Positions 40,494 through 46,832 of a stretch of 64,000 nt of DNA are shown here, piece by piece. Source of the DNA: Corallococcus macrosporus DSM 14697 (GTDB taxonomy: Bacteria > Myxococcota > Myxococcia > Myxococcales > Myxococcaceae); the NCBI RefSeq assembly GCF_002305895.1, contig NZ_CP022203.1:5000501-5064500 (forward strand). The letters are read 5' to 3'. Position 1 is the stretch's first letter. Each line of letters opens with the position of its first letter. Below the pieces are notes generated by a model that worked only from the letters and a program-made list of their open reading frames with translations, ran no database searches and was not told where the DNA came from. The translations under genes were made by a program, and so were the position numbers.

Positions 40494-41432
40494 ATGAGCA
40501 CGACGACCCAAGTCAGCGTTCCCACTTCTCCTCGAGCCACTTCCCACCCCCGCACCCTGGAGAGTGTCCATGGTGGCGGCGAGCTGCACTGGGTGGGTGA
40601 CGGCTTCCGCGTCCACACCCTCGTGCCGAGCGGCGGCCTGCGCCAGAAGCGGACCAGTCCGTTCCTGCTGCTCGACTACCATCCGCCCCGTGCCTACCCC
40701 GCGCTGGCGAAGGGCCAGCGGGGCGTCGGCTGGCATCCGCACCGTGGCTTCGAGACGGTGACGCTCGCCTTCGACGGGTACGTCGCGCACCGCGACAACG
40801 CGGGCCACTCCGGCGTCATCGGTCCCGGCGACGTGCAGTGGATGACGGCGGCGTCCGGCATCCTCCACGAGGAGTACCACGAGCACGACTTCTCCCGGCG
40901 CGGCGGCACCTTCCACATGCTCCAGCTCTGGGTGAACCTGCCTCGCGAGCACAAGATGTCCGCTCCGGGTTACCAGCCCATCACGAAGGAGCAGATTCCG
41001 GTGGTCCCCCTTCAAGGAGGTGGGGAGGCCACGGAGCACAGCCGGGTGCGCGTCATCGCCGGGAGCTACGGTGACGCGAAGGGCCCCGCCAGGACCTTCA
41101 CGCCCATCTCCCTGCTCGACGTGAAGGTGCGCGCGGGCGAGGACTTCCACCTGCCGCTGCCCTCGGACCACAACGCCCTGGTGCTCGTCGCCAACGGCCG
41201 CGTGACGGTGGGCACGGAGCGCATCCGGAGCGGTGAGCTCGGGGTGTTCGCCAACGACGGGGAAATTCTCTCCCTCCGGGCCGACGAGGACACGCACTTC
41301 CTCGTCCTCGCGGGCGAGCCCATCCACGAGCCCATCGCCCACACCGGGCCGTTCGTGATGAACAACCACCGGGAAATCATCCAGGCCCTCTACGACTTCG
41401 ATTCGGGCGCCTTCGGTGGGATTCCCGAGTAA
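40494..41432 (+). CDS. Pirin family protein (bicupin)
   Basis: 312 residues. The pirin N-terminal cupin has the metal-binding set: GVGWHPHRGFETVTLAFDG with two His, then SGILHEEYHEH with the further His/Glu ligands. The C-terminal cupin follows (FHLPLPSDHNALVLVANGRV, FLVLAGEPIHEPIAHTGPFV). Bacterial pirins include quercetinase-like dioxygenases and stress-linked proteins. Likely regulated by the adjacent LysR protein. Confidence 0.93.
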   Translation: MSTTTQVSVPTSPRATSHPRTLESVHGGGELHWVGDGFRVHTLVPSGGLRQKRTSPFLLLDYHPPRAYPALAKGQRGVGWHPHRGFETVTLAFDGYVAHRDNAGHSGVIGPGDVQWMTAASGILHEEYHEHDFSRRGGTFHMLQLWVNLPREHKMSAPGYQPITKEQIPVVPLQGGGEATEHSRVRVIAGSYGDAKGPARTFTPISLLDVKVRAGEDFHLPLPSDHNALVLVANGRVTVGTERIRSGELGVFANDGEILSLRADEDTHFLVLAGEPIHEPIAHTGPFVMNNHREIIQALYDFDSGAFGGIPE

Positions 41433-41495: not shown

Positions 41496-41685
41496 GGGCG
41501 TCAACGGTTCGGCGGGGTGCGGGGTGGAGCCCGTCGAACCACGGCGGACGACGTGGACTCCGATTGAAGGGAGTGTCGGCGGGGAGCGCTCGCACTGCCC
41601 GCGGGGGGGCTTGTCGTCCTCCACGTCCCTCCAAGATTCCAGCGCTCCAGGGCTGCAAGCCTTCGCAAGCCCCGAGGAGGGCAAG

Positions 41686-44685
41686 ATGTCTCGATGTTCG
41701 AAGTGGCGACTGCTGGCGATTCTCGCTGTCTGTCTTTGGGCCGGACGTGGCAACGCCGCGGACGCGCGGCGGTCCATCGAGCGCCGGCACCCGCTGCCCG
41801 TCTGCCCGACGCCGCGGTGCGCCCCGGCCCTGCCCGTCAAGGACATCAGCTTCGGACGGAGCTCGAGCTTGCCCGGCGCCTTCGTGAACCTGGGTGGCAC
41901 GCTGTTGTTCACCGCCACGGACCCGCTTCACGGCCGCGAGTTGTGGCGGAGCGACGGCACGGCCTCCGGCACGGTGCGAGTGAAGGACATCAACCCCGGT
42001 CCAGAGGACGCGTTCCGCGACTTCGATGACGAGCTGTTCATTTCCTTCCGGCCGCTGGTGGTGATGGGCGGTGCCATCTACTTCATGGCCAACGACGGCG
42101 TGCACGGCGACGAGCTGTGGCGGAGCGACGGCACGGAGGGGGGCACGGTCCTCGTCAAGGACATCCAGCCCGGCGAGGGGGGCGGGTTCCCCAGAAACCT
42201 GAGCGTCGTGGGTGACACGTTGTTCTTCTCCGCGATGGACGACCTCCACGGCTTCGAGCTGTGGAAGAGCGATGGCACGGAGGAAGGCACCGTCCTGGTG
42301 GCGGACATCAACCCGGGGCCAGAGGGCTCGACGCCCTCTTCCTTCGCCCACCTGGGGGACACGCTGTACTTCTCCGCTGATGACGGCACGCATGGCTCCG
42401 AGCTGTGGAGGAGCGACGGAACGGCCGAAGGCACGGTGCTCGTCAGGGACATCGCCGAAGGTTCGGAGGGCAGCTCACCGTTCTGGCTGACGGCGCTGGG
42501 GGACACGCTGTACTTCGTCGCGGAGGAGGCGCTGCACGGCCGAGAGCTGTGGCAGAGCGACGGGACACCCGAGGGGACGATGCTCGTCGAGGACATCGTT
42601 CCCGGCGAGGAGAGCTCGAGCCCCTGGGCCCTCATCGCGACGGGAGGGCGCCTCTTCTTCTTCGCCCGCACGCCGGCGACGGGCGAAGAGCCCTGGGTGA
42701 GTGACGGGACGGAGTCGGGGACGTTCCTGCTCAAGGACGTCTTCCCCGGCCCCGAGGATTCGTACCCCGACATCGACCCTTCGCGCTTCCGCACGACCCT
42801 GGACGGGAGCCTCATCTTCAACGCGGACGACGGCATTCACGGCGTCGAACCGTGGAAGAGCGATGGGACTCCCGGGGGCACGGTGCTCGTCAAGGACATC
42901 AACCCTGGCGCGGACAGCTCGGTTCCGTTCCTGCCGGTGGCCGTGGACGGGACGCTCCTCTTCGCCGCCCGCGACGCGAAGGGCCGTGACGAGCTCTGGC
43001 GGAGCGATGGCACGGAGGACGGCACCTACCGCATGCGCACCGTGACGGGAGGCCCCCGCATGTCCGCGCCCCGAGGCTTCACCGCATCCGGCGAGTCCGT
43101 CTTCTTCCTGGCCTTCGACGACAACATCGGCGGGGAGCTGTGGTCCTTGCCGCTGGCCTCGCTGGGCGACTGCGGCACCCCAGCGGGGAGCCTGGGCCTT
43201 CACGAGGCGGGGGCCCGCGGCCTCGTCCCCTGGGCCGCCATCCTGGGGCTGCCAATGCTCGCGTTGAGCGTGTTGAGCGGGCGGCGCAGGAAGTGGCCGC
43301 TCATGGCGGTGATGCTGCTCGTCGTGCCCGGGCTGGCCTGCACGTCCGTGGACGCCGAGGAAGGGTCGCCCGAGGTGACGGACTTCCATTCGAGCTGCAA
43401 GGGGCCGGTGCTCGTCAGGGACGTCGCCGCCTGCATCGAGGACTCGGTGCCGGAGAACCTGGTGGACTGGCGGGGCATGCTCTACTTCACCGCGAATGAT
43501 GGCCGCATCGGCACCGAGCTGTGGCGGAGCGACGGCACGCGGGGCGGCACTCGGCGCGTGGATGACATCGCCCCCGGACTCGCCGGCTCGGACCCTCAGG
43601 AGCTGACGCCCGTGGGCGGGCTGCTCTACTTCTCCGCGGACGACGGGGTGCACGGCCGCGAGCTGTGGAAGAGCGACGGCACCGCGGCCGGAACGCGCCT
43701 CGTGGAGGACAGTGTCCCGGGCCCCCAAGGCTCGGCGCCGCGTAACCTGACGGTGGCGGACGGGAAGCTCTTCTACGTCGCCGCGAATGCCAGCGACGAC
43801 TGGGAGCTGTGGAAGAGCGATGGCACGCGGGGCGGGACGACGCGTGTGAAGGCCGGAGTCGCTCCCTGGAACCTCGTGGCGCTGGGACGCCTCGTCATCT
43901 TCACCGCGTATGACCCGGAGACGGGCTCCGAGCTGTGGCGGAGCAACGGGACGCGCGCGGGCACGTACCGGCTCGCGGACCTCGTCCCGGGGCCCGGCAG
44001 CGCCAATCCCATCTTCCTGACGGCGGTGGGTGACAAGGTCTACTTCGCCGCCTTCACCGCCGAATTCGGTGGCCGCGAGCTGTTCGTCACGGATGGGACC
44101 CCCTCGGGGACGCGGCTGGTGAAGGACATCATCCCTGGCGACGATGGCTCGTATCCGGAGGGCTTCGTGGGCCTGGGCGACACCGTGTACTTCACCGCCA
44201 CGAGCACGGGTTCCACGCCCGAGCTCTGGAAGAGCCGTGGAACAGCGGCGAGCACCGTACGCATCGGGACGGTGTCGCCGGTTCCCTTCTCGCTGGTGGC
44301 GGCGGGCGGCCAGGTCTTCTTCCGCGGCAGCGCGGACGGCGTGGACGTCGAGCTGTGGCGGACCCATGGGACGGCCTCGGGGACGCGGAGGGTGAAGGAC
44401 ATCGTCCCGGGCCCCGAGGGCTCGGACCCCCAGGACATGACGGCGGTGGGCGACTGGCCGTTCTTCACCGCGTTCCAGGCGGACACGGGCCGCGAGGCGT
44501 GGCGCAGCGACGGGACGGAGGCCGGCACGGTGCGAGTCGCGGAGCTCGTGCCGGGCCCGCTGTCCTCCTACCCGGGCGGCTTCACCCGTTCGGGCTCACG
44601 GGTGTACTTCGCAGGGGATGACACCGCGACGGGAGCCGAGCTCTGGGCCCTGCCGCTGGCCTGTCTCCCGCCGTCAGGGAAGTGA
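41686..44685 (+). CDS. ELWxxDGT-repeat protein, in-frame fusion of two eight-repeat units
   Basis: 999 residues from ATG 41686 (GAGGAGGG 6 nt upstream; signal peptide LLAILAVCLWAGRGNA). Repeats of about 60 residues centre on ELWRSDGTxxGT and should build beta-propellers at the cell surface. Unit 1 (about residues 50-500) has eight repeats and closes with GELWSLPLASLGDCG. Then come a hydrophobic stretch and Arg run (LVPWAAILGLPMLALSVLSG, RRRK), like a MYXO-CTERM sorting tail, and directly after it MAVMLLVVPGLAC from residue 540, like a lipoprotein signal. Unit 2 has eight more repeats and closes with AELWALPLACLPP. No stop separates the units. Function of the repeats is unknown. Confidence 0.88.
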   Translation: MSRCSKWRLLAILAVCLWAGRGNAADARRSIERRHPLPVCPTPRCAPALPVKDISFGRSSSLPGAFVNLGGTLLFTATDPLHGRELWRSDGTASGTVRVKDINPGPEDAFRDFDDELFISFRPLVVMGGAIYFMANDGVHGDELWRSDGTEGGTVLVKDIQPGEGGGFPRNLSVVGDTLFFSAMDDLHGFELWKSDGTEEGTVLVADINPGPEGSTPSSFAHLGDTLYFSADDGTHGSELWRSDGTAEGTVLVRDIAEGSEGSSPFWLTALGDTLYFVAEEALHGRELWQSDGTPEGTMLVEDIVPGEESSSPWALIATGGRLFFFARTPATGEEPWVSDGTESGTFLLKDVFPGPEDSYPDIDPSRFRTTLDGSLIFNADDGIHGVEPWKSDGTPGGTVLVKDINPGADSSVPFLPVAVDGTLLFAARDAKGRDELWRSDGTEDGTYRMRTVTGGPRMSAPRGFTASGESVFFLAFDDNIGGELWSLPLASLGDCGTPAGSLGLHEAGARGLVPWAAILGLPMLALSVLSGRRRKWPLMAVMLLVVPGLACTSVDAEEGSPEVTDFHSSCKGPVLVRDVAACIEDSVPENLVDWRGMLYFTANDGRIGTELWRSDGTRGGTRRVDDIAPGLAGSDPQELTPVGGLLYFSADDGVHGRELWKSDGTAAGTRLVEDSVPGPQGSAPRNLTVADGKLFYVAANASDDWELWKSDGTRGGTTRVKAGVAPWNLVALGRLVIFTAYDPETGSELWRSNGTRAGTYRLADLVPGPGSANPIFLTAVGDKVYFAAFTAEFGGRELFVTDGTPSGTRLVKDIIPGDDGSYPEGFVGLGDTVYFTATSTGSTPELWKSRGTAASTVRIGTVSPVPFSLVAAGGQVFFRGSADGVDVELWRTHGTASGTRRVKDIVPGPEGSDPQDMTAVGDWPFFTAFQADTGREAWRSDGTEAGTVRVAELVPGPLSSYPGGFTRSGSRVYFAGDDTATGAELWALPLACLPPSGK

Positions 44686-45005
44686 GGTCAGGCCGCCTCG
44701 TCCCGGCGCAGCCTTCGCCGAGGGCGCCGGGACGAGGACGGCCCGCACCACCACCTGCCTCCACACCCCACGCAGCCGAACACGGCGAAGTCGAACGTCC
44801 TCCTGAGCCGCTGCCTCAAGCCCCGCGCGCGCCGCCCGCGCACCTGCTTGACCAGCGCCAGCGCACCACGCGCCCCGTAGCGGCGTCGCCGCGCCAGCCC
44901 CTGGCCGTGCGCTGAACGGGGCGGACTCAACGCGAAAGCGCCCCGTCCCGCGCCGCCCGTGTAGGCTTCACGGGCCGGTGCGGTTCACATGCTTTGGGGA
45001 GACAG
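44686..45005 (-). other. 320-bp gap; possible small basic protein on the minus strand
   Basis: A minus-strand frame 44688-44930 (80 codons, TTG start, no ribosome binding site) has G/C third-position bias and encodes an Arg-rich protein with a Cys/Trp motif (FAVFGCVGCGGRWWCGPSS). It could be a real small gene or an antisense shadow. The rest should hold the antiporter promoter; none was recognised. Confidence 0.3.
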
Positions 45006-46832
45006 ATGGCGGACGTGGGATCGAACGATCTGGTGAAGGTGGTGGCCCTGCTGGGCGCGGCGGTGGTCGCGGTGCCCGTGTTCAGGCGACTGGGGCTCGG
45101 TTCAGTGCTGGGATACCTCGCCGCGGGGCTGGTGATCGGGCCGTTCGGGATGGGCTGGTTCTCCGACCCCCAGGCGGTCCTGCACGTCGCCGAGCTGGGC
45201 GTGGTGATGTTCCTCTTCGTCATCGGCCTGGAGATGCGCCCCTCGCACCTGTGGAGCCTGCGTCGGCAGATCTTCGGCCTGGGCACGCTGCAGATCGCCG
45301 CCTGCACCGCGGCGCTGACCGGCGTCGGCCTGCTGTTCGGCCAGGAGCCGGTGGTCGCATTCATCGGGGCGATGGGCTTCGTGCTGACCTCCACCGCCAT
45401 CGTCATGCAGTTGCTGAGCGAACGCGGCGACATCGCCCTGCCCCACGGACAGCAGATCGTCTCGGTGCTGCTGTTCGAGGATCTGCTCATCGTGCCGCTG
45501 CTGGTGCTGGTGGCGCTGCTCGCGCCGGGCGAGCCCAGCAGCGACGCTTCGCGCTGGACCTCGATAGGCATTGCCACCGGCGTGCTGGTCGCGCTCGTCG
45601 CCGCCGGCATCTGGCTGCTCAATCCGCTGTTCCGCCTGCTCGCCGCGGCGCGGGCGCGCGAGGTGATGACGGCCGCCGCGCTGCTCGTCGTGCTGGGGTC
45701 CGCGCTGCTGATGCAGCTCGGCGGTCTGTCGATGGCGATGGGCGCGTTCCTCGCCGGCGTGCTGCTGTCGGAGTCGACGTTCCGCCATCAGCTCGAAGCC
45801 GACGTCGAACCCTTCCGCGGCCTGCTGCTCGGCCTGTTCTTCCTCGGCGTGGGCATGGCGCTGGACCTGTCGGTGGTGCGCGACCACTGGGCGCTGATCC
45901 TCGGCGCGGTGCTGGCGATGATGCTGGTCAAGGCGCTGTGCATCTACGCCGTCGCGCGGCTTACCGGGTCCACCCATCACGAAGCGCTCGATCGCGCCAC
46001 GCTGATGGCGCAGGGCGGCGAATTCGCCTTCGTGCTGTATTCCACCGCCGCCGCCAGCGGCGTGCTCGCCGCCGCGCAGAACGCCAACCTCACCGCCATC
46101 GTCGTGCTGTCCATGGCGCTGACGCCCCTGGTCGTGCTCGCGGTGCGTCCGTGGCTCAAGCGCCAGGATGAGAAGATCGACGACCTGGACGTCGCCGACG
46201 GCCTGTCCGGCAGCGTGCTGATGATCGGGTTCGGCCGCTTCGGCCAGGTCGTGAGCCAGTCGCTGCTCGCGCGCGGCGTGGACGTGACCATCATCGACAA
46301 CGACGTGGAGATGATCCGCAGCGCCGGCACGTTCGGGTTCAAGATCTACTACGGCGACGGCACGCGCCTGGACGTGCTGCGCGCATCGGGCGCGGACAGC
46401 GCGCAGGTGATCGCCGTGTGCATCGACAACAAGGAGGCCGCCAACCGCATCGTCGAGCTGGTGAAGTCCGAGTTCGGCCAGGCGAAGCTGCTCGTGCGCT
46501 CCTTCGATCGCGAACATTCCCTGCAGTTGATAAACGCCGGGGTCGACGTGCAGGTGCGCGAGACGTTCGAATCGGCGATCAGGTTCGGCCATCACGCGCT
46601 GTGCCAACTGGGCGTTCCGAAGGAAGACGCACTGGAGATCGTCGAGGAGGTGCGCCGCCGCGATGCGGAGCGCGTGCAGTTGGAACTGGCCGGGGGACTC
46701 GCCGCGGGCACACGCCTGCTGATCGGCAACCTCGTCCCGGGCCCGACGCCGACGCCGTTCACGCCTCCGCGCAAGGCCGCCACGCCGCTCACCCCGGAAA
46801 CGGCCGAAGCGACCCAGGGCAGGAACGAGTAG
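45006..46832 (+). CDS. CPA2-family monovalent cation:proton antiporter (KefB/KefC type)
   Basis: 608 residues. About 12 transmembrane helices (LGYLAAGLVIGPFGMGWF, GVVMFLFVIGLEMRP, GFVLTSTAIVMQLLSERGD, FFLGVGMALDLSVV), then a cytosolic RCK_N/TrkA domain from about residue 402 with GFGRFGQVV, TIIDNDVEMI and the GDGTRLDVLRASGAD block. It should exchange K+ or Na+ for H+ and be gated by nucleotide or redox ligands at the RCK domain. ATG 45006 follows GGGGAG; a TTG four codons earlier is less likely. The coding style (many GATC/ATC codons) differs from the core genes at the start of the window and the protein looks gammaproteobacterial, suggesting transfer. Confidence 0.93.
   Translation: MADVGSNDLVKVVALLGAAVVAVPVFRRLGLGSVLGYLAAGLVIGPFGMGWFSDPQAVLHVAELGVVMFLFVIGLEMRPSHLWSLRRQIFGLGTLQIAACTAALTGVGLLFGQEPVVAFIGAMGFVLTSTAIVMQLLSERGDIALPHGQQIVSVLLFEDLLIVPLLVLVALLAPGEPSSDASRWTSIGIATGVLVALVAAGIWLLNPLFRLLAAARAREVMTAAALLVVLGSALLMQLGGLSMAMGAFLAGVLLSESTFRHQLEADVEPFRGLLLGLFFLGVGMALDLSVVRDHWALILGAVLAMMLVKALCIYAVARLTGSTHHEALDRATLMAQGGEFAFVLYSTAAASGVLAAAQNANLTAIVVLSMALTPLVVLAVRPWLKRQDEKIDDLDVADGLSGSVLMIGFGRFGQVVSQSLLARGVDVTIIDNDVEMIRSAGTFGFKIYYGDGTRLDVLRASGADSAQVIAVCIDNKEAANRIVELVKSEFGQAKLLVRSFDREHSLQLINAGVDVQVRETFESAIRFGHHALCQLGVPKEDALEIVEEVRRRDAERVQLELAGGLAAGTRLLIGNLVPGPTPTPFTPPRKAATPLTPETAEATQGRNE

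Follow-up and report, generated by a model that had tools for sequence, protein, structure and literature searches.

Few descriptions exist of secreted polyproteins in bacteria whose translocation starts anew at an internal signal sequence. The fbcH cytochrome b/c1 polyprotein of Bradyrhizobium is a single bacterial precursor that is split at an internal signal peptide and in this respect resembles the model favored here. A limited literature search found no secreted polyprotein cut by signal peptidase II, and searches on ELWxxDGT, lipo-invert, internal lipobox and fbcH returned nothing usable. In myxobacteria, TraA and TraB constitute an exported MYXO-CTERM protein and its OmpA-type partner, encoded by neighbouring genes (PMC11980579). 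Another myxobacterial case is MXAN_5598, which carries an internal MYXO-CTERM that perhaps originated from a gene fusion and for which processing has been proposed (PMC11980579).

The window, a stretch of 64,000 nucleotides from Corallococcus macrosporus DSM 14697, lies within a genome that consists of one contig of 8,973,512 bases. Positions 41686-44685 of the plus strand form one uninterrupted frame of 999 amino acids with zero internal stops, whose ATG start is immediately preceded by the SD-like sequence GAGGAGGG. ELWxxDGT repeats cover nearly its full length. Against the ELWxxDGT profile TIGR04534, the whole protein scores 956 bits over 17 stretches (curated cut-off 65 bits), and the separate halves reach 542 and 445 bits, far beyond chance. 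The original prediction of two ELWxxDGT domains in one frame, with the stop between the halves absent, is therefore confirmed by the open frame, and both halves indeed close with ELW(S/A)LPLA (ELWSLPLA or ELWALPLA). Its count of eight repeats per half holds for the xxDGT-type turns, degenerate examples of which occur in the second half (SNGT, SRGT, THGT), and rises to nine units once the closing ELWxLPLA is included. Long minus-strand ORFs that overlap 41686-44685 look like GC-rich antisense frames. The features of the locus are as follows.

41519-44855, no strand: putatively acquired segment, given as the outer limits of DNA that the empty site of G066 lacks; homology to the orthologue locus L128 covers about 41513-44669 (blastn against the G066 intergenic region and L128)
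41686-44685, plus strand: complete coding sequence of 999 amino acids, a predicted two-propeller ELWxxDGT precursor (frame, TIGR04534, orthologues)
41686-41760, plus strand: predicted N-terminal Sec signal peptide, about residues 1-25 (SRCSKWRLLAILAVCLWAGRGNAA; the orthologues likewise begin with a hydrophobic stretch)
41815-43167, plus strand: predicted propeller A, about residues 44-494, nine units (TIGR04534, AlphaFold, Cys positions)
43222-43272, plus strand: TM1, residues 513-529 (LVPWAAILGLPMLALSV), predicted stop-transfer helix (Kyte-Doolittle scan, orthologue alignment)
43279-43293, plus strand: predicted cytoplasmic basic loop GRRRK, residues 532-536 (orthologue alignment)
43294-43341, plus strand: TM2 (residues 539-551) and putative internal signal peptide, with lipobox-like GLAC end at Cys552 (alignment, Kyte-Doolittle, Cys list)
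43303-43305, plus strand: candidate internal ATG, not conserved (codon listing of the five orthologues)
43396-44667, plus strand: predicted propeller B, about residues 571-994, nine units (TIGR04534, Cys positions, full-length model)

The AlphaFold model of the first half, built from a small alignment (pLDDT 85, pTM 0.86), contains nine strand units, and its most N-terminal strand closes the final blade. The second half shows the same strand pattern in the full-length model, and together these models suggest that each half is a nine-bladed, velcro-closed beta-propeller. The linker between them falls below pLDDT 50 in the full-length model, for which the alignment held no linker homologues. The best Foldseek matches in the PDB were ten-bladed sortilin-type and other large propellers, at a TM of about 0.5, and no solved relative emerged when the PDB was searched by sequence. 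Cysteines are rare in this protein, being restricted to three per propeller and Cys552 directly after TM2. Two of the three lie near the start of each propeller and one at its end (Cys40, Cys45 and Cys496 in propeller A; Cys571, Cys583 and Cys993 in propeller B). All of these are invariant in the five orthologous sequences, and a velcro disulphide is plausible. Large propeller folds typically bind ligands, and the two propellers of this protein may do so as well.

A search of 195 Myxococcota genomes yielded four full-length orthologues, three from congeners (G063, 71% identity; G067, 67%; G073, 66%) and one from Archangium lansinium (G003, 52%). All four are single open frames, none with an internal stop. 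In the alignment of the five sequences, the linker, which spans residues about 497-570 in the window copy, always follows the same order of TM1, basic loop, TM2 and an invariant Cys. Its length ranges from 72 to 106 residues between the defined propeller ends and always keeps the frame; frame 0 of the five linkers has no stop, and the other frames mostly have at least one. TM1 is weakly conserved, and its Archangium counterpart is less hydrophobic in the Kyte-Doolittle scan. The basic loop contains three to five Arg/Lys and zero acidic residues in all five sequences, with WRR-type clusters after TM1 in the orthologues and GRRRK in the window copy. The TM2 counterparts are Leu-rich and end in PG(ML)xxC, followed by an acidic spacer, and the Cys, which is Cys552 in the window copy (codon 43339-43341), is present in five of five.

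The stretch MAVMLLVVPGLAC had originally been read as a lipoprotein signal, which stands in part. Together with the preceding RRRK it looks like a signal peptide, and its Cys is retained in all five sequences; on its own it has no basic n-region, and the residues at -3/-4 (G, P) do not make a strict lipobox. The lipobox of the window copy (PGLAC) and that of G063 (PGVAC) are not canonical, and those of the other three orthologues are good, with MLVGC or LLGGC at the same place. Two profile matches were set aside. A weak match to the ‘lipo-invert’ family NF058595 (13.1 bits) was treated as noise from hydrophobic sequence; this profile exceeds its cut-off in none of 96 Myxococcaceae genomes, and control genomes give similar weak matches. 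A match to Pfam NDUF_B12 is spurious, as no matched stretch passes alone.

That the locus encodes a fused precursor is near certain. A hairpin with both propellers outside is likely, because the positive-inside pattern recurs in all five sequences, an N-terminal signal peptide is present and ELWxxDGT repeats lie on both sides. For the TM2-end Cys, lipidation is the best explanation, since it is a lone invariant Cys in an otherwise poorly conserved linker of a Cys-poor protein. We therefore lean, with some reserve, towards one exported precursor in which a stop-transfer helix and an internal lipoprotein-like signal peptide separate two propellers and Lgt/LspA act at Cys552. The single gene would give rise to one exported precursor of 999 amino acids with two velcro-closed beta-propellers. 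Its N-terminal signal peptide would direct propeller A through Sec, TM1 would halt translocation and leave the GRRRK loop in the cytoplasm, and TM2 would serve as a second, internal signal sequence for the export of propeller B. Lgt would probably attach a lipid to Cys552, with LspA probably cleaving the chain just ahead of this residue; we regard this cleavage as somewhat the more probable outcome. Propeller B would then become a free lipoprotein, and propeller A would remain anchored through the hairpin pending its release by another protease; the precursor would supply both in a 1:1 ratio. A Thr at +2 of Cys552 suggests the outer membrane by the general rules of lipoprotein sorting, so that propeller B may reside there. 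The earlier idea of a double-anchored surface protein fits this model in outline.

Alternatively, the hairpin could remain uncut, leaving a double-pass inner-membrane protein with a helical hairpin and two propellers on the periplasmic side. This is the main rival, which we consider possible but rather unlikely. It draws on the same topology evidence from linker alignment and hydrophobicity, and it is compatible with the weak lipobox of the window and G063 copies. In related genomes it is ordinary for two ELWxxDGT propellers to follow one another in a single chain that has no hairpin (L132, L133, L143 and L152). An uncut hairpin leaves unexplained, however, why an invariant Cys should sit at the exact end of TM2 in a variable linker, and three orthologues have good lipoboxes; for these two reasons we favor the internal lipoprotein signal peptide. 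Among the proteins examined, these five orthologues alone have two propellers joined by a membrane hairpin that bears a lipobox-like Cys, and across about 30 loci no mid-chain hairpin was found in other ELWxxDGT proteins.

A free lipoprotein could also be produced from a second start at ATG 43303, with or without the full-length product, as had been suggested from the AGGAAG at 43288-43293, 9 nt upstream of this ATG. Both elements are confined to the window copy: the codon listing revealed no ATG with an SD-like sequence at the matching place in any of the four orthologues, nor is the first half ended by a stop codon in any orthologue, as a separate first product would require. Internal initiation is therefore unlikely as a conserved mode of generating a second product, and we consider this explanation improbable.

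Scarcely more probable, and if anything less so, is that the first half is a MYXO-CTERM substrate of myxosortase and that the hairpin is cut on both sides. TM1 followed by GRRRK does have the arrangement of a transmembrane helix and an arginine-rich segment that characterizes MYXO-CTERM tails (TIGR03901/TIGR03382), which is the likeness pointed out in the original prediction; true internal MYXO-CTERM and signal peptide modules also exist elsewhere in the same genome. The resemblance ends there, and by the curated model TM1 is no MYXO-CTERM. Such a tail is expected at the C-terminus, and about 460 residues follow this one in frame. It has no GC-type Cys motif next to TM1 and scores 7.6 bits against the TIGR03382 cut-off of 15.85, and the same profile matches none of the four orthologous tails. 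In the window copy TM1 begins 17 residues after Cys496, and the corresponding gap is wider in the orthologues.

The history of the fusion can be read from the halves themselves. Across all ten pairs of sequences, dN/dS is 0.38-0.56 for the first half and 0.33-0.59 for the second, and both halves are under purifying selection. In a tree of the halves, the five first halves form one clade and the five second halves another (100/99), with the same inner order in each: the window copy with G063, G067 with G073, and G003 outside. Since the trees match and selection is purifying, the fusion appears to be old rather than recent. The matching trees further indicate that the halves have been inherited as a unit ever since the Archangium and Myxococcus copies diverged, or from the time of an early transfer between these lineages. 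An old fusion of two genes is plausible, and the fused protein is real and conserved, not an accident.

The window copy itself is most simply seen as a horizontal gain. It lies between the genes for a pirin (40494-41432) and a Na+/H+ antiporter (44994-46832). In the close relative G066, whose flanking proteins are about 93% identical to those of the window, these two genes are about 413 bp apart and the ELWxxDGT gene is absent, leaving an empty site; homology between the window and G066 ends at 41519 and restarts at 44855 (blastn). In the remaining three congeners the gene occupies a common locus that differs from that of the window and is 83-85% identical in DNA across more than 10 kb; window homology to this orthologue locus (L128) is limited to about 41513-44690. 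From the empty site, the different congener locus and the limited homology, we infer that the window copy is an inserted single gene, accompanied by about 170 bp of upstream sequence.

The proposed comparison of orthologues for a stop near 43300 found one in none of the four and a conserved linker, the very result that the original prediction had named as its refutation, and a recent loss of the stop is thereby refuted. Adjacent separate ELWxxDGT pairs do exist, as at L135, but a recent accidental stop-loss fusion, whether neutral or in decay, is highly improbable, as is a mistake in assembly or sequencing, given the same open junction in five genomes of two genera (the window copy and four orthologues), the matching half trees, the purifying selection and the one-contig genome. 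At L135 (7854-10879), the two adjacent genes overlap by stop and start at ATGA, and the second encodes a predicted lipoprotein; this pair is a possible picture of the unfused state.

Long ORFs with an internal tail and a second signal peptide are found elsewhere in the genome of the window. L215 (2530-10623, minus strand; G000:C1:6773000-6788000) contains an ORF of 2698 amino acids with an AgmC-like N-terminus, Ig-like repeats and a TraB-like/OmpA C-terminus. Its internal MYXO-CTERM-like tail, GCSTSGAG-TM-RFRR (15.4 bits, below the 20-bit cut-off), is directly followed by a Sec signal peptide (..ARPAVA|QV) and then by the TraB-like/OmpA part. L216 (2673-8360, plus strand; G000:C1:7458500-7468500) contains an ORF of 1896 amino acids with Kelch and HYR domains and an OmpA C-terminus, in which an internal MYXO-CTERM over cut-off leads directly into a signal peptide (..APNALA|QS) and the OmpA domain. 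Similar tail and signal-peptide modules occur in G063 (L247) and in Archangium (L259, L266), the junction in L259 being equivalent to that of L216.

These proteins point to a small group of surface proteins in myxobacteria that combine a tail and a second signal peptide in one ORF and that automated annotation would otherwise regard as odd or fused. More tentatively than for the model itself, we propose that the window protein might be a natural bacterial polyprotein split by Lgt/LspA into two equimolar envelope propellers and that, together with the MYXO-CTERM fusions, it might reflect a recurrent means by which myxobacteria export a pair of anchored proteins in a single chain. If true, Lgt and LspA would accept internal signals, and the window protein would offer a defined system in which to test this.

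By its repeats, the window protein belongs with the ELWxxDGT proteins, as both halves consist of this repeat far above the cut-off. The fbcH polyprotein differs from it in being cut by signal peptidase I, in giving rise to respiratory-chain subunits and in having no lipobox. TraA and TraB are encoded by two overlapping ORFs, whereas the window protein is one fused chain. With MXAN_5598-type proteins, L215 and L216, it shares an ORF in which an exported domain ends in a hydrophobic-Arg tail and another signal peptide comes at once, leading into a further exported domain, and it is a variant of this theme of internal tail and second signal. Those proteins have a GC-type MYXO-CTERM, an AxA second signal for signal peptidase I and an OmpA-type C-terminal part; the window protein, in contrast, is without the MYXO-CTERM motif and places a lipoprotein-like second signal before another propeller.
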